NCBI GenBank assembly: GCA_020152595.1
Contig: JAIGNY010004483.1
Span: 124,001-188,000, forward strand
Length of the DNA: 64,000 bases
Source of the DNA: Chiridota heheva
Lineage: Eukaryota > Echinodermata > Holothuroidea > Apodida > Chiridotidae
Reading direction: 5' to 3'
Shown: in pieces, positions 14,690-54,845 of the stretch
Position numbering within the stretch: position 1 is the first letter of the stretch
Layout of the letters: the number at the start of each line of letters is the position of its first letter
Made by a program: the position numbers and the translations under genes
Notes under the pieces: model-generated
What the model saw: the letters and a program-made list of their open reading frames with translations, nothing else
The model's database searches: none
What the model was told of the DNA's origin: nothing

Positions 14690-15470
14690 TAAGAACTGAC
14701 ACTTTCATACACAGTATGCTCAATCAGGGACTGTGATAGCTAGGATGAGACTTCTTATGGATGTTATGTGGGATACGGGGTAGGATGCCATGTTCGACAT
14801 GGGGTTGGATGCCATGTGGAAAAGGGTGGAATGCCATGTAGGATATATGGTGGAATGCCATGTGGGACATAATGTGGAACGCTGTGTGGGAAATCAGGTG
14901 GGAAGCCACTGATGCGGGATATAAGGTGGGATGCCATGGGGGACATAGGGAGAGATGCCATGTGGGACACAGGGATAGATGCCATCTGGGACATAGGGAG
15001 GGATGTCATGTGGTACATATGGTTGGATTAATGTGGGACATACATGTAGGATGGGATCCATGTGGGACAAAGTGGGATGTCATGTGGCTCATATGGTGGA
15101 CTGCCATGTGGGACATTTGGTGGGATGCCATATGGGACATATGGTGGAATGCCATGTGGGACAAGGGATGGGATGGGATGTCATGTGGGACATGGGGTGG
15201 GATGCCATGTGGGTCATATGGTAGAATGCCATGTGGGACAAGAGGCGGGACATGGGGGTGGGATGCTATGTGGGAGATATGGTGAAATGCCATGTGGGAA
15301 AAGGGATGGGATGGGATACCATGTGGGGACATGGGATGCCATGTGGGACGTAGGATGCCATGTGAGACTTCGTGTTAGATGCCATTTTTATAATTGGCCG
15401 GATCATGTGATATGGGTGTCAATTTGCATGGGCATGCAAACCATGACAGTATTTACCGTTCTAGTTTCCA
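14690..15470 (+). mobile_element. Element G copy 1, dispersed element carrying a GCCATGTGGGACAT minisatellite
   Basis: The left flank (GAACTGACACTTTCATACAC, then ATGCTCAATCAGGGACTGT and AGCTAGGATGAGACTTCTTA) and the right flank (GATGCCATTTTTATA, GGGCATGCAAACCATGACAG) both recur around the similar array at 53.9-54.8 kb. Between them, about 620 bp of irregular 18-30 bp units hold GGGATGCCATGTGGGACATA. The shared flanks show that the array moved as part of a larger unit. The encoded Met-Ser-His-rich frames are artefacts. Confidence 0.75.
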
Positions 15471-16301
15471 ATTTGTTTCTACAATAATCATGTATTATAT
15501 GCACATGAAACACCATCGGAATTTCTGTTGAAGTTGTTTAGTGAATTTTAGTATAAAGCATCATCGTGGATAAGAAAAAAAATCTATATTCAAATGAATA
15601 CATCTTTGGTTGTATTCCTTCTGCAAATCACTTTGTTTGAAACAAAAACTATTGACTTTACAGTAATGTTAAGGGCATTGACTTGCAGTGATAAAACCCT
15701 GAATAGCTTGTACTTTTTACAATGCTTGATGAACACAACTTGTATGCATTTTGTGGTTAGGGTCGATAAGCATGGTATTTATTTTTAATTTAAAGTTATC
15801 CACTGTTCTTTTTACGGTATTGTTGTGTTTCATAGTGGTTTGAGAACCCCTTTAAATTGTTTGATTAAATGTTTACCACAAGCCATTCAGGCCTAGCTCT
15901 GGAATCCTTTTATCTGTTTTGGTGAAATGGTGAAATTGGGGTGTACTCGCACTCCACAGAGTTGATAAAAACCATAAAGAATGCAAATTTTGACCACCAG
16001 TTCGTGATGTATTCATCATTTTTTGGCAGTTTTTGTTTTGGGAATACTGATAATACAGTTTAACAACTTTTTTTTTTCTTCAAAAGATGTCATGATTCAT
16101 GAATATAGTCAAATAACTTGGTAATCATGTGATACTTGACATTCCAAATTTCTCCTTCATGTAATTTGGAAGTGTTTTGATTATATTTTGATTGAATATG
16201 AAAGTATTTGTTTTTTAAATCAGAAAAAAAGCACTGCAAGGAACAGTAGAAAATTCTGGGTTGTGTAAACTCAGCTGCAACATCTTTTTTTGCATACACG
16301 T

Positions 16302-16885
16302 GTAATGGATAAGTTCAGTGGTCAAGCAAATCTATTTATATGAACAAGGACTTCAAAATGAACAAAATGGTGAAGAAACCATTCAAAAATCTTATTCCAT
16401 TAAGGAGATATCAAAGTTTAAAGTTTGGTATCATTTGTATAGAAATGAATGAAATCGGACTAGTTGTGATGTCATAGCCTCAGATTCCTCAAAGTTGTTA
16501 TGTATTCTATCATATTTTGTTCTGCGATTTTGTGGCTTAAAAACCATTGGATATGTCAAAAAGTTGTGAAACTGAATCTAGGAAAGGTATTTATAACGTA
16601 CCACCAAAAGAAAGTTTGAGGAAAAATGATTTAAATAGTAAAAAGATTAAATAAACGTTCTTTAAAATACATTAACAATTGCTAAGAATGTGAGGATGAA
16701 GACACCAACTTACCATAGTAGACTTACTACACCAGTCATTTCTACACAGATAGGACAGAGCTTAAAACTAGAATATCTTCGTAACGGAATAAGATATTTG
16801 AATGGTTTCTTCACAAATTTTGTTTCTTTTGAAGTCCTCGTTCATATAAAATGGACATGCTTGACCACTGAAATGATTCCTTTAA
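16302..16885. mobile_element. Family A foldback element, near full copy
   Basis: Left end TAATGGATAAGTTCAGTGGT is mutated in its TTAA. The right end …ATGATTCCTTTAA is intact. The centre includes GGATATGTCAAAAAGTTGTG. The right arm carries the variant block AGGATGAAGACACCAACTTA also seen in the copies at 12.4 and 42.7 kb, a subfamily marker. Confidence 0.75.
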
Positions 16886-28935: not shown

Positions 28936-30004
28936 TTAAATAAGAATTACAACCCTGGTAACGATGGTAGTTTAATTAGACCCGCTTTGTACTGTTAGAG
29001 ACCATGAACTGTTTGTGTTGTTTGAAACTATTTTCTCACTTCTTACACAACGGTTGAAATGGACAGGTTTCAGCACAAAAAGCAATTAAAAATCTCTACC
29101 TGTCCTGTGTATAACTTTGAATTAAAGAAAATATATGTTCAAAGTAATTCATTCATTTAGGAGTGACTAGCTTTCTTCCTCATAACAGGCTGCATGTGAG
29201 GCTGGTAATGAACATGAACCACCTCCACAGGGGGTGCTTTACCACTTTTTATCTTTTTTATTTTAAGCTCACTTAAAACCACAAAGGTGTAGAGGTGGGG
29301 TTCATTTCGTGTTAATGACTCCCCTTGAAGCATGTTCTATTTATTTTGGCACATTTATGTTATGATTTCCAGACATGGTAACCTTGTCACCAGGTGGAGT
29401 TAAGTAAATGTAGAGGTCACCTAAGGTCAAGTTTGTCAAAGGCTTAAACTTGTTTCTTCCTCTTCATACCATGTTTTTGTAATTCATTCCGTGAGACAAG
29501 GAACCCATTGTTCCACAGAAACTTGATCTTCACACTTTAATATAGAGGAGATGAAAATCAGGGAAAAACTCCTGAACAGGTGTGCTTATTTTTATCCAAA
29601 CATGGTTTCCATTTATTTCTGAGTCAATTCTTTGTGGTTGAAAGTAAGAGTATATGCAAATATTTATTTGGATAATTCCAACACATTAATAGAAATATAA
29701 TTGAATGACTTTTGCAAAATGTTTTGTTTAACCCTGTGTCACTGTTATTGTTAGTGGTTTAAGAGGAATTGGATTATACACAAATCATTTTATTATCTGA
29801 TTCATTTATTGTCCATTGGTGTCTAGATTATATTAAATTCCACTGTAGAGAAAAAAGAAAGAAAAACAAATCTGGATTGTCTCTTTTCAGATAAGGAAGA
29901 ACATTTTTTATTTATAGTTGATATGTTGTAGAAGGTGGGAGTGGGGTTTGATTTATTTCTGACATATTAATAAACAAATCATGGAAAAATATTCAAACTT
30001 TGGA

Positions 30005-31012: not shown

Positions 31013-32708
31013 ATTTAGGTTATTTAAGTTTTAAAGCTTTAGTTTTTAATGCAAGTTATAGCCCAAGCGAGCTATCAACTACAAGTGCTATGCCCCAATT
31101 TGGCTATAGTGTAGGACAAAGCTCAAATGGGATATTATACCCAATTGGCACATCAATGCAGCGTTCTTTATCTTTCTGAAATGTTTGCTGGCCCTTCCGA
31201 GTAGTATGTTATAATATATTCTAAATTCATTTGGATCGCGCTGAGCGAAAACCGAATTGTGGAGTCGTTTTTGGTGAGATTTGGAATGCAAAATTCTTTA
31301 AAACTATGCACTAAATACAAAGTGTTGTTGCATCCATGGATCGATCTGTATGTACGCAAACACGATGACACAGCAAAATGTCGAATAAACACTTAGGATT
31401 AGATCATATGCTGCCAAAATCCGAACGAAAATCTGGATTTGGGGCTAGTGTTGCTTCAGCTCAAAATTCCGTAAAAGGGATGTTGAGCTAAAAACAAGAG
31501 ATTTCAGGAAAACAAATCACTAAAAATTCGTCTGAAAGAGGATAGTTAAGATATTCTGATTGAAATCTGACACGTTGAAAGTCAAATTGTACTCTTTTTC
31601 ACCTCATCCTGTCCTTACAAAACTGAGATCGAAAAGATCTGACCTCTGTGAAGTAGTTACTGGAGGTTATACCTCTATGCTGTAATAGAGGAACATTAAT
31701 GTAGTCAAAATATGTGCATTTCATAGAGGATAATACATACCTGTGACTTGGAGAAAAGCCATTAAACTGATTCACCTAGTTTATACAGTATCTTTCTTTC
31801 CTGTCAGTCTCATAATCTTAAAACTACTGTACCGTAATCTGATTGCAACCTAATAAAACCAAAAAACAGTTGATGGATGATGAATTGAGATTTTATGTCT
31901 GGTAGATTTACCTGGAATTTTATTTCTTATTTATTGTTTTATTGAATTATTATGTTCAAGCTTTCTACTTACATGTCTTAAATGTCACATTAAGTATCAA
32001 TATTTGTGATAGAATCTGACTGTTATCAAGTTAATAGAACTGTGTGATGAACATTGTTTCCATGGAGTTGAATGAAACGACCTGGTTTTGGCTAATGTAC
32101 GCTGCTGTGATTAAATGCCTTGTAGCGTTGTATTTTTCATTTAGGTGGAAACTATTTTTAGCTGTTAAATTATTGCTTAAGACCTTGCTTTTTGAAATTA
32201 CTTTTTATATATTTTTGCTCATTATTTTGTCAAGAGTCTTTAGGATGAAATTGTAAAAGGAGATTATGGGTCTTTTGTCCTATTTTCCAGATGAATTTTA
32301 ATCAGACCTGGATAAAAAAGGCACAGTTATGTTGGTTTTAAAGAAGGGAAGAATGCATGTTGTATGGGAAAAAAGGCAAAAGAGAAAGACCAATAATAAA
32401 GATGGTTGCATGGTGCATTTTCCATATGGTATCTTCACCTTTTGAAATAGAGGAGAAATGTGGAAACTAAATTTTTCTCCATCTTAGGTTTACAAATAAT
32501 CATTACAGCATAACAGCAGTTTAAATGCAAGCTTTTTCACCAGCTATGTCCACTTTGTGTGGCAAAAGCTTATAAAAGACTAATCTTTATTCTTTTAATA
32601 ATGAATATTTAAATTATATTTATATTAATATTCTAATTGTGTATATTTAATTATTTTTGTCTCCATTTTTTTCATTGAACAGCCAACAGCCTTCCTGCCG
32701 GTTTCCAG

Positions 32709-32864
32709 AAATCACCACATCCCCTACCGTGACAGTTGTAGAAAAGTATCGCCCAGCTCGAATGGACTGTGCCGGAGTGGGGAATCCCGATCCGCAGATT
32801 ATATGGTTTCAAGACAATATCCCAGTTGATCTTGATGATCCGCGAATAACAGTTCATTCTGATT
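32709..32864 (+). CDS. LAR-type receptor tyrosine phosphatase, exon encoding the first half of Ig-like domain 2
   Basis: The frame shows Cys21 and Trp33 of an I-set domain and the stretch GNPDPQIIWFQDNIPVD, which closely resembles the start of Ig2 in vertebrate LAR-family receptors. The donor is GATT|GTAAGT, phase 1, and it cuts Ig2 at the point where vertebrate genes place mini-exon A. The start is ambiguous. The acceptor TTTCCAG at 32707-32708 gives 156 nt and keeps the frame of the Ig1 exon. The acceptor TTGAACAG at 32681-32682 would add codons reading LPAGF, matching the family linker, but that frame meets a stop (TGA) unless one base is restored near 32705. I therefore mark the in-frame start. 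The rest of Ig2, the other Ig and fibronectin domains, the membrane segment and both phosphatase domains are not in the window. Confidence 0.8.
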
Positions 32865-34012: not shown

Positions 34013-34033
34013 TAAAAGATGATTTTTTTTTTG

Positions 34034-34600
34034 AAGATTAGTTCAGGGGTCAAGCATGTCCATCTTATATGAAAGAGGACTTCAAAAGAAACAAAATGGT
34101 GCAGATAGCATTTAAAAACTCTTATTCTGTTAAGCAGATATTCAAGTTTAAAGTTTGGTATCATTTGTGTAGAAACGACTGAAATCAGACTAGTTGTGAT
34201 GTCACAACCTCAGATTCCTCAAAGTCTATGTATTTTAAAAGAAGTTTATTAAAAAATTTCACTATTTAAATTATTTTTCTTTAAAACTTTCTTCAGGTGG
34301 TATATTATAAATGCCCTTCCTAGATTCAGTTTTACTAATTTTTTTTGACATCCCATGGTTTTCAAGCCACAAAATCACAGGACAAAATATGATAGAGTAC
34401 ATAAAGACTGACGAATCTGAGGCTGTGACATTACAACTAGTTATGATTTCAGTCGTTTCTACACAAATGATACCAAACTTTAAACTTAAAAATCTCCTCA
34501 ACGGAGTAAGATTTTTGAATGCCTTTTTTGCCATTTTGTTTCTTTTGTAGTTTTTCTTCATAAAAGATAAACATGCTTGACCACTGAACTAATCCTTTAG
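34034..34600. mobile_element. Family A foldback element, full copy
   Basis: Left end AGATTAGTTCAGGGGTCAAG and right end CACTGAACTAATCCTTTAG. Both arms and the centre (ACATCCCATGGTTTTCAAGC, right-facing order) are present. Both terminal TTAA sites are mutated. Confidence 0.75.
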
Positions 34601-34762: not shown

Positions 34763-35170
34763 ACTTGTGTGTGTGTGTACAATACCTTTACAATGTTATT
34801 TCCCCTGGATTTGGTATTTATAAACATGAAACATGATTTGATTTTGGTGGTGGGCTGATAGGATTAATCCGGAAATCTTTTAATGCAGGGCTGAAAAATG
34901 ATCCAAATGTTAGGAATATGATTTGGGTGTGACCATTTATTATATAACAGCGTGTAATGGAAAACCCAGTTGTCAGAAATGAGGGCAGGTGGAGAGTCAC
35001 ATGGTTCTGGGTGCCCTCTTAACTGCCCCAAAAGCATTGATGAATTATCTCCCAATACCTTCCACACTTTGAGGTGCAAACAGGACTGGAATTGGATCCG
35101 TCTGTATTTTTCAGCCCTGTTTTCATTGAAGTCCAGTGTGAATGACTATTTATATCCATCCTTTTTCTAG

Positions 35171-35197
35171 TTACTCCCGGTCAAGGGAATCGTAGAG
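35171..35197 (+). CDS. Candidate 27-nt microexon, equivalent to LAR-family mini-exon A
   Basis: A strong acceptor (TATCCATCCTTTTTCTAG) is followed by 27 nt and then the donor GAG|GTAAAT. Entering in phase 1 from the Ig2 exon at 32864, it reads F-T-P-G-Q-G-N-R-R and leaves one G for the next codon, again phase 1. Inclusion or skipping therefore keeps the frame. Vertebrate PTPRD and PTPRS insert a 9-residue mini-exon at this position in Ig2, containing Gly-Gly-Thr-Pro and ending in Arg before a Gly codon, and it tunes binding to postsynaptic partners. Length, position, phase and a Pro/Gly/Arg-rich peptide all agree. Because 27 nt carries little information, RNA evidence would be needed for certainty. 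Confidence 0.55.
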
Positions 35198-35499
35198 GTA
35201 AATTTTCAATTTTGATTCTCCACTTTGGTAGAACAATTCTGACATGTTCGCTCATACATTGCTTGCTAAAGTGTATGGACACAATATGGGATTTCTTTAC
35301 TGTTGGCTCTTTCAGTTTCTTAAATGACTCATTTTGGGCAAAACATACCCTTTTTGAAAACTTAATCAGTGTGGTCAAAATAATGTTTGAAGGTGCCAAT
35401 GTGGTTCTCGCTTTTTTCTGGGGAAATTTTGTTTTGAAGGAGGGGGGGCACTACCACTTGTGAGGTGTATACATGTGCCGCCCGAGCAGTTGCCTTTTT

Positions 35500-36273: not shown

Positions 36274-36611
36274 TTACAGAAATATTAGCTTGTAGCAAGC
36301 TTGCTGCACGCTTGCGACAAGCCAACAATTTTTAGCTTGCCCAAGCGTGCTGCAAGCCTGCCCAAGCATGCTGTAAGCTAGTATTTGGAACAAAATAGCT
36401 TGCGCAAGCTTGCAAAAACTATCTGCAAGCTAGCCAAATTTTCTGCAAGCTTGTGCAAGCTAACAAATATTTTGTGCTAGCTTGCGCAAGCTAATGTTTG
36501 CTTGCACAAGCCAGGAAGCTAGTATTTGTTCCAAATTTTAGCTTGCAGCACGCTTGCTGCAAGTTAATGAAATGCTAGCTTGTTGCAAGCTGCAAGCTAG
36601 AATTTCTGTAA
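36274..36611. mobile_element. Foldback element built from AGCTTG / CAAGCT words
   Basis: The ends TTACAGAAAT (36274-36283) and ATTTCTGTAA (36602-36611) are perfect 10-bp inverted repeats. Between them the hexamer AGCTTG or its complement CAAGCT occurs some twenty times, often as AGCTTGCGCAAGCT or GCAAGCTTGC. The sequence can fold on itself in many registers. It is unlike families A-D and lacks TTAA ends. There is no open frame. Confidence 0.65.
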
Positions 36612-46335: not shown

Positions 46336-46419
46336 CACAGTAACATCACTTTAGACCTTGTTGTAGTTTAATTGACATATCAATTTGTGGACAGCTAGTA
46401 CTTTCAGGCCCTTTGCAAA

Positions 46420-47095
46420 ATATGCTTTGAGGCCCATTGCAAAATATGCTTTGAGGTCCATTGCAAAAAGTGCTTTGAGGCCCACTGCAAAAAGTGCTCA
46501 GAGGCCCATTGCAAAAAGTGCTTTGAGGCCCATTGCAAAAAGTGCTTTGAGGCCCATTGCAAAAAGTGCTTTGAGGCCCATTGCAAAAAGTGCTTTGAGG
46601 CCCATTGCAAAAAGTGCTTTGAGGCCCATTGCAAAAGTGCTTTGTGGCCCATTGCAAAAAGTGCTTTGATGCCCATTGCAAAAAGTGCTTTGAGGCCCAT
46701 TGCAAAAAGTGCTTTGAGGCCCATTGAAAAAGTGCTTTGAGGCCCATTGCATAGGTGCTTTGAGGCCCATTGCAAAAAGTGCTTGAGGCCCATTGCAAAA
46801 GTGCTTTGAGGCCCATTGCATAGGTGCTTTAAGACCCATTGCAAAAAGTGCTTTGAAGCCCATTGCAAAAAGTGCTTTGGTTCCCATTGCAAAAAGTGCT
46901 TTAATGCCCATTGCAAAAAGTGCTTTGAAGCCCATTGCAAAAAGTGCTTTGATGCCTATTGCAAAAAGTGCTTTGAAGCCCATTGCAAAAAGTGCTTTGA
47001 TGCCCCATTGCAAAAAGTGCTTTGAAGCCCATTGCAAAAAGTGCTTTGATGCCCATTGCAAAAGGAAAAAGTCCTTGGAGGCTCATTGCAAAAAG
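46420..47095. repeat. 24-bp minisatellite GCCCATTGCAAAAAGTGC, about 28 units
   Basis: Each unit is about 24 bp: GAGGCCCATTGCAAAAAGTG plus CTTT. The central block is nearly uniform. The right third carries alternating GAAG/GATG variants, a higher-order pattern of about 48 bp (for example 46915-47045). Because 24 is a multiple of three, long frames open on both strands. They are artefacts of the array. Confidence 0.96.
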
Positions 47096-47268
47096 TATTT
47101 TTTAAATTGTATGCTTATGATTTTATCCTTTAATTCATTGCTTCAAAGTCCTTGGTAATGAATGGTATCTACTCATAGGAGTGCCTTCCAGGTTTTGCAG
47201 TTCATACCATGTTTTGTCTTGGTATTAATTTTTAATCTTTGCTTTCCTCCCCTGTTACATTATCTAAT

Positions 47269-47426
47269 TTAAAGGCCATCTATCGTGTGGTGGCGTACAT
47301 TTCATTCCAAAACGATACTGATTGGACTCAATTTAAGTGTACATTGTACCATTGTGTTTCGACCAATCAAAACACAAGAATCAAAATTTATTTTCTCCGC
47401 ATAATAGAGATGAAGCTGTCCTTTAA
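47269..47426. mobile_element. Possible small TTAAAGG-ended element
   Basis: TTAAAGGCCATCTATC on the left and the inverted GCTGTCCTTTAA on the right give weak inverted ends with TTAA, resembling families A-C in the first 7 bp only. Confidence 0.3.
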
Positions 47427-53639: not shown

Positions 53640-54845
53640 CATGATTATTAAATTCCGCCTTTATTATTGTGGTTATTTGCATAAAGTTGCTACAGTATAT
53701 GAAATGACCAAACTTTTTTTTTATTTAGTATGCTTAGTCAGGAAGTGTGACAGAATGTGACTACACTGTATGGACATGCCATGTGGGACAAGGATGGGGG
53801 CCAGGCGGGACATATGATATAATAAATACCATGAGGTATACACCAAGGGCTATATCAGGCATAATTATTAGCCTGCCCTTTTTGTTCTTATTCAACAAAA
53901 CATTTGCATATAAGTTATTTTATGAACTGACACTTTCATACATAGTATGCTCAATCAGGGACTGTAGGTAGCTAGGATGAGACTTCTTATGGAGTGTATG
54001 GGACATGTGGGACATGGGGTGGGATGCCATGTGGGACATAGGGTAGGATACCATGTGGAACAGGGTGGAACAGGGTGGAATGCCATGTAGAATATATGGT
54101 GGAATGCCATGTGGGACATTGTGGAATGCCATGGAATGAAATGTCATGTGGGACATGGGATGGTTTGGGATATCATGTGGGACACGGGGTCCCACCCCAA
54201 TTTAACAACTCATTTGCATATAAGTTATATGAACTAACACTTTCATGCATAGTATATGGGTCATAGGGTAGGATGCCATGTGGGACATGGTGGAATGCCA
54301 TGTGAGACACATGGTGGAATGCCATGTGAGACATACTGTATGGTGGAATGCCATGTGGGAGATATGGTCAAATGCAATGTGGGACATGGCATGGGATGGG
54401 ATGTCATATGGGACATGGAGCGGGACTTATGTGGGACATGGGATGGGATCCATGTGGGACAAGGGGTGTGATCCATGTAGGACATAGGGTGGGGTGCCAT
54501 GTTTGTCATAGGATGGGATGTCATGTGGGACATGGTGGAATGCCACATGGGACAAGGGATGGGATGGGATGTCATGTTGGACATGGGGTGCCATGTGGGA
54601 GATATAGTGGAATGCCATGTGGGGCAAGGGATAGGATGGGATGTCATGTGGGACATGGGGTGGGATGTCATATGGGACATGGGATGGGGTGCCATATGGG
54701 ACATGGGATGCCATGTAGGACATGAGGTGCCATGTGGGAGTTAGTGTGAGATGCCATTTTTATAGTTGGCCTGGTCATATGATATGGTGTTTTGATATAG
54801 TGTTTGCATGGGCATGTGAACCATGATGGTATTTACCATTCTAAA
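53640..54845 (+). mobile_element. Element G copy 2, with partly repeated flanks and a minisatellite
   Basis: The left-flank words (CATTTGCATATAAGTTAT, GAACTGACACTTTCATACAT, GTATGCTCAATCAGGGACTG) occur fully at 53885-53990 and in degenerate form at 53690-53780 and 54205-54255, so the flank itself has been duplicated within the array. About 750 bp of units with GGAATGCCATGTGGGACAT follow, then the right flank GATGCCATTTTTATAGTTGG and GGGCATGTGAACCATGATGG. It corresponds to copy 1 at 14.7-15.5 kb. Confidence 0.72.

Follow-up and report, generated by a model that had tools for sequence, protein, structure and literature searches.

A candidate 27-nt microexon near the mini-exon A position of an apparently non-vertebrate LAR-type receptor tyrosine phosphatase gene

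The closest described system is mini-exon A (meA) of the vertebrate LAR-type receptors. In the literature cited here, meA of PTPRD consists of two microexons of 9 and 18 nt (PMC8711739, PMC4423211), with meA3 encoding ESI and meA6 encoding GGTPIR (PMC8711739, PMC4423211, PMC7821500), and its coding sequence in mouse lies in exons 15 and 16 (PMC7265247). Binding of IL1RAPL1 by PTPRD requires meA9, or meA6 together with meB, and Arg196 of PTPRD contacts IL1RAPL1, the R196A replacement lowering affinity 11-fold (PMC4423211). In PTP-sigma, meA has been placed in the D-E loop (PMC4239663). For PTPRS, meA was reported as absent from developing mouse brain cDNA (PMC4423211), as barely expressed in the examined regions with the exception of the olfactory bulb, and yet, in a meA1+meA2- form, as predominant in some mPFC-projecting neurons (both PMC10883964). 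Mice that lack meA reproduce the biochemical, synaptic, and sleep effects of deleting PTPRD (PMC7265247). The original prediction for the locus described below held that PTPRD and PTPRS use a nine-residue mini-exon at this site; the nine residues agree with meA9 of PTPRD, but they are encoded by two microexons, and the PTPRS papers differ among themselves.

According to PMC8797185, conservation of neural microexons drops quickly outside vertebrates, and the eMIC-dependent microexon programs of fly and mouse show near-complete rewiring: only four fly eMIC exons lie at positions shared with mouse, and convergence was favored for three of them. An open-licence literature search yielded no invertebrate meA-like exon that we recognized among the matches listed. 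If a true insert occupies the same site in a non-vertebrate, either this switch was in place before vertebrates arose, or splice inserts have appeared in the D-E loop repeatedly.

The window, that is, the whole stretch of 64,000 nt that we analyzed, carries on its plus strand a portion of a gene for a LAR-type receptor tyrosine phosphatase (LAR-RPTP, type IIa), judging from the encoded protein. An Ig1 exon of 288 nt, phase 1 to 1, is located at 1728 to 2015 (PTPRD Ig1 in a PDB phmmer search; Pfam I-set, 7e-10), and the first half of Ig2, a match to PTPRD Ig2, is located at 32683 to 32864 and ends in phase 1 after RITVHSD at the vertebrate meA site. The top PDB matches of the two joined pieces were PTPRD, PTPRS, and PTPRF chains, with E values down to 4.3e-39, and fly Lar was matched at 4.8e-23; Pfam called an immunoglobulin domain in both pieces. 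These matches, together with the by-eye alignment of the split described below, agree with the original assignment to the LAR family and to the mini-exon A site on the upstream side. When the Ig2 half was searched alone with the microexon peptide attached, ROBO chains came top by summed domains, and the best single domain among the matches listed was PTPRD Ig2 (41.7 bits versus 23.4 for ROBO1). Of 95 residues in Ig1, 33 are identical to human PTPRD, as are 24 of 54 in the first half of Ig2, a level that suggests a non-vertebrate animal. Ig1 is followed by an Ig2 of LAR type, visible up to the split point, and the remaining LAR domains (Ig3, FNIII repeats, and the D1-D2 phosphatase) are expected past the window end. 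A scan of genome contigs with an Ig1 pattern returned 141 pattern matches with no relative among them, and the exact 27-mer had no match in viral contigs; neither outcome is surprising for a gene of animal origin. In the window itself, neither Rfam (gathering) nor a bacterial-code tRNA scan gave any match.

The Ig1 exon has an acceptor of 3.9 bits and a strong donor at 2015 (6.8 bits), where it stops in phase 1, whereas the Ig2 half opens in phase 2 if it starts at 32683 or, with lower likelihood, in phase 0 at 32690; its acceptor and its donor (ATT/GTAAGT) score 2.4 and 1.5 bits. Because of this mismatch, it seems that either an exon of length 1 mod 3 is missing in the 30.7 kb between them or an alternative weak donor at 2019 (-6.9 bits) is used. 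The phase at 32864 is unaffected, since it is set by the Ig2 reading frame itself. A 7-nt candidate microexon at 29189 to 29195 (GCTGCAT; sites of 6.0 and 4.4 bits), with TGCATG across its donor, has a length of 1 mod 3 that would reconcile the two phases; an equally good candidate of 4 to 31 nt appeared in 25 of 150 shuffles.

The upstream exon closes with CAT TCT GAT T/GTAAGT in phase 1 and stops at RITVHSD, seven residues from its Arg, and PTPRD has RIKQLRS, also seven residues, then ESIGGTPIR and then GALQIE. By eye, the upstream side aligns with the split RIKQLRS/G, the site of the meA insert between strands D and E. The stretch from GNP to the split spans 28 residues in this gene, compared with 30 in PTPRD and 27 in fly Lar, and the Arg residues of RITVHSD and RIKQLRS line up only when a gap of two residues is opened upstream. 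The automatic alignment placed no such gap and ended two residues short of the split. The earlier claim that the exon stops exactly at the conserved split point draws on the by-eye pairing, which the automatic alignment does not reproduce.

The candidate microexon begins 2,307 bases farther on (35171-32864), in line with the 2.3 kb originally given, and its coordinates on the plus strand, 35171 to 35197, proved exact: 27 nt between an acceptor and a donor. It reads CATCCTTTTTCTAG/TTACTCCCGGTCAAGGGAATCGTAGAG/GTAAATTTT with its flanks and CTTTTTCTAG/TTACTCCCGGTCAAGGGAATCGTAGAG/GTAAAT with its acceptor and donor. Together with the leftover upstream T, it encodes F-T-P-G-Q-G-N-R-R without a stop and leaves one base (G) over, so that by its own arithmetic it has phase 1 on both sides; the Ig2 exon end and this arithmetic agree with the phases first proposed, but a downstream partner exon was not found in 35198 to 64000. 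The polypyrimidine tract with AG acceptor (35156 to 35170; 4.0 bits) is within the top 2.0% of 3,464 AG sites on the plus strand of the window, for which "strong" is a fair word, and the previous AG, at 35135 to 35136, leaves an AG-free distance of 34 nt. The donor GTAAAT (35198 to 35203; 3.5 bits), without a G at +5, ranks in the top 1.7% of 3,802 GT sites on that strand. A possible branch-point A (aTGAct), proposed by consensus only with other UNA motifs also present, is at 35145, 26 nt before the exon start. An internal AG at 35184 to 35185 (acceptor 1.9 bits) could give a shorter form of 12 nt, WNRR(G), at 35186 to 35197 with the same donor. The G+C content of 52% and two CpG are exon-like, and 1.6% of intron 27-mers reach both.

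Like eMIC (SRRM3/4, Srrm234) neural microexons, the candidate falls within 3 to 27 nt, keeps the frame, and belongs to a synaptic gene. Unlike them, by the eMIC features given in PMC8797185, it has no UGC close to its acceptor (the nearest upstream is at -96), and its possible branch point reads aTGAct, where fly eMIC exons have CUAAY. GCAUG is also absent from -300 to about +330 around the microexon; the motifs typical of microexons under eMIC or RBFOX control are therefore lacking. The 27 nt are single copy in the window at up to 3 mismatches, and a 701-base query around them matched only itself in the window and, in a 200-kb sample of the same genome, gave only a 61-base alignment at the far downstream end of the query. 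A repeat origin is ruled against by the single window copy and by the lack of any repeat over the microexon in that sample. A MITE-like inverted repeat, with 29-nt arms (34871 to 34899 and 35106 to 35134) that are 76% complementary and 206 nt apart, ends 36 bases before the microexon and does not include it.

How unusual is such a stretch? Splice sites were scored in bits with position matrices, and candidates were counted as in-phase, frame-keeping (3n), stop-free acceptor-donor pairs, with strict thresholds equal to the microexon's own acceptor and donor scores and relaxed thresholds equal to those of the Ig2 half-exon's own sites. In the 31,136 visible bases of the intron, the microexon ranks first by summed score among 451 frame-keeping pairs of 3 to 30 nt and is the only in-frame stop-free pair of 3 to 51 nt at its thresholds; at relaxed thresholds, only the microexon and one 3-nt candidate remain among pairs of 3 to 30 nt. 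Local second-order shuffles of the intron produced a 27-nt pair with both sites at least as good in 1 of 200 cases, and in 6 of 200 when the summed score was the measure. A pair of any 3n length to 30 nt arose in 27 of 200 shuffles, and one of any to 51 nt in 34 (114 by summed score). First-order simulations (30 runs) gave means for 27-nt pairs of 0 with both thresholds and 0.03 by sum. As a same-genome control, 20 pieces of 10 kb from one contig (C1), both strands, covered 400,000 strand-bases and held no 27-nt pair at either threshold, with 3 pairs of 3 to 30 nt at the strict (0.23 per intron) and 18 at the relaxed thresholds (1.4 per intron). Three control tracts (this intron read in antisense, and the Ig1-Ig2 intron on each strand) contained 0, 0, and 1 pairs of 3 to 30 nt at strict thresholds; relaxing the thresholds gave 3, 3, and 1, and no pair had a length of 27 nt. 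Across the whole window, a summed score at least that of the microexon was reached at 3 to 51 nt by three pairs on the plus strand, of which only the microexon lies in the intron, and by four on the minus strand. With 60 perturbed matrix sets, the microexon took first place 17 times, second place 25 times, and third place 8 times, and it fell below that with the other 10 sets (worst rank, 20). By the shuffle and same-genome counts, the exact 27-nt match is unusual, and the occurrence of some microexon-like stretch is only moderately so.

Compared with meA of PTPRD, the candidate shares the gene family, the site (by eye), a net gain of nine residues, and, as the last residue before strand E, an Arg that is the counterpart of Arg196 in PTPRD. 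Its 27 nt form a frame-keeping, stop-free insert within the meA sizes of 3, 6, or 9 residues. It differs in being one exon instead of two microexons of 9 and 18 nt, and in encoding FTPGQGNRR instead of ESI-GGTPIR. No 9- or 18-nt candidate occurs among the intron candidates listed with a summed score of at least 4. A 9 + 18 split of the microexon was also considered and rejected: a GT follows its first nine bases (CCG/GTCAAG), but without A or G at +3 and G at +5. The peptide scores -3 against ESIGGTPIR in BLOSUM62, with 2 of 9 residues identical without gaps, and 8.8% of random stop-free intron 9-mers and 9 of 84 donor-anchored ones score at least as well. The terminal Arg is found in 4.1% of random intron 9-mers and in 4 of 84 donor-anchored ones. 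Alternative use is established for vertebrate meA, whose inclusion is neuron-biased, and is a prediction for the candidate here. Because the exon number and the peptide differ, we would set the microexon apart from meA, although by analogy it would work like meA. Drosophila Lar Ig1-Ig2 (PDB 2yd1, 3pxj), another non-vertebrate LAR Ig2 with a similar half-domain, differs in that the fly crystal constructs run RYSLKDGFLQIE with no insert, a comparison limited to the PDB chains.

The host intron, 32865 to 64000 on the plus strand, is apparently longer than 31 kb by motif scan and tblastn. The exon for the second half of Ig2 was not found in 35198 to 64000 by a motif scan or by tblastn with PTPRD and fly Ig2b queries, and tblastn with a PTPRD Ig3 query after 35198 showed no Ig2 second half among the matches listed. 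The Ig2b queries gave 14 plus-strand matches after 35198, none judged Ig-like in context, the best with an E value of 1.9 (seven residues at 47347). The residue right after the split is Gly in both human (GALQ) and fly (GFLQ). In PTPRD, the codon of this Gly would be divided after its first G. The last base is T in the upstream exon and G in the microexon, so if the next exon completes a Gly codon, that codon can form only when the microexon is included, and a message that skips it would have Cys, Trp, or a stop instead. Hence, provided that the next exon keeps this Gly, the microexon may be the default form and not an optional insert, unlike vertebrate meA.

On balance, the reading that we favor, and consider somewhat more probable than its negation, is that 35171 to 35197 is a genuine frame-keeping LAR-RPTP microexon of a non-vertebrate animal, working most likely as meA does. 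It is backed by the LAR identity of the gene, by where the stretch lies, by the phase in which the upstream exon ends, by the splice signals, and by how rarely such a stretch turns up in the controls. Spliced in between the two Ig2 halves, the microexon would make the D-E surface loop longer by nine residues, FTPGQGNRR, and bring an Arg to the beginning of strand E; the longer loop with its Arg could change the binding partner of the receptor, by analogy with meA. We infer that the stretch is spliced, that its use would be alternative, and that it would alter binding. It is rather unlikely that the stretch is a chance decoy, intron sequence that resembles a 27-nt exon and is never spliced. Such a decoy would fit a candidate whose donor lacks the +5 G, whose surroundings lack the regulatory motifs, and whose Ig2 second half does not appear up to 64000, and 3n candidates to 30 nt do arise in shuffles (27 of 200) and in the same genome (0.23 per intron). 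However, the exact length foretold by meA9 is rare in the shuffles (1 or 6 of 200) and absent from the 400,000 strand-bases, and the exon-like G+C and CpG and the first rank among 451 also speak against a decoy. Less likely still, the exon is real but constitutively included, giving this lineage a longer D-E loop in place of a switch. The upstream T and the G of the microexon would make inclusion necessary for Gly if the next exon starts with GN, but the junction codon depends on that exon, which was not found in the window, and LAR-RPTP microexons are alternatively spliced in the papers cited.

Another question is the age of the insert. The original prediction that the insert, if real, predates vertebrates would require homology: the likeness of the peptides is not clearly above chance, the fly Lar chains lack the insert, and PMC8797185 favors convergence in three of four cases. 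One possible reading, though short of an even chance, is that the exon is real but has an independent origin at this intron, being neither ancestor nor descendant of vertebrate meA. Besides the fly Lar chains, a peptide not recognizably related to meA and one exon in place of two would suit an independent origin, as would the rewiring between fly and mouse and the convergent exons at equal positions described in that source. Against it, the site, the net nine-residue length, and the terminal Arg are all the same as in meA. Surface loops also lose sequence similarity fast. In a competing scenario, a nine-residue insert in the Ig2 D-E loop predates vertebrates as a single 27-nt exon, and in vertebrates it later came to be encoded by two exons, meA3 and meA6, as the loop peptide changed along with its binding partners but retained the terminal Arg; we regard this as distinctly improbable. 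Convergence is at least as likely as descent from a shared meA.

Several other features were seen in the window. A repeat family of about 520 bp (862 to 1391, 16347 to 16882, and 34029 to 34547) has 81 to 87% identity to one place elsewhere in the same genome (L007). Related tandem repeats about 39 kb apart, at 14724 to 15487 and 53920 to 54759, contain, on both strands, long open frames with the pattern MWD..GCH(V/M)GH, and another tandem repeat, at 46346 to 47158, encodes (IAKSALRP)n and (FLQWASKH)n in several frames. The segment from 36280 to 36610 is dense in AGCTTGC/GCAAGCT words.
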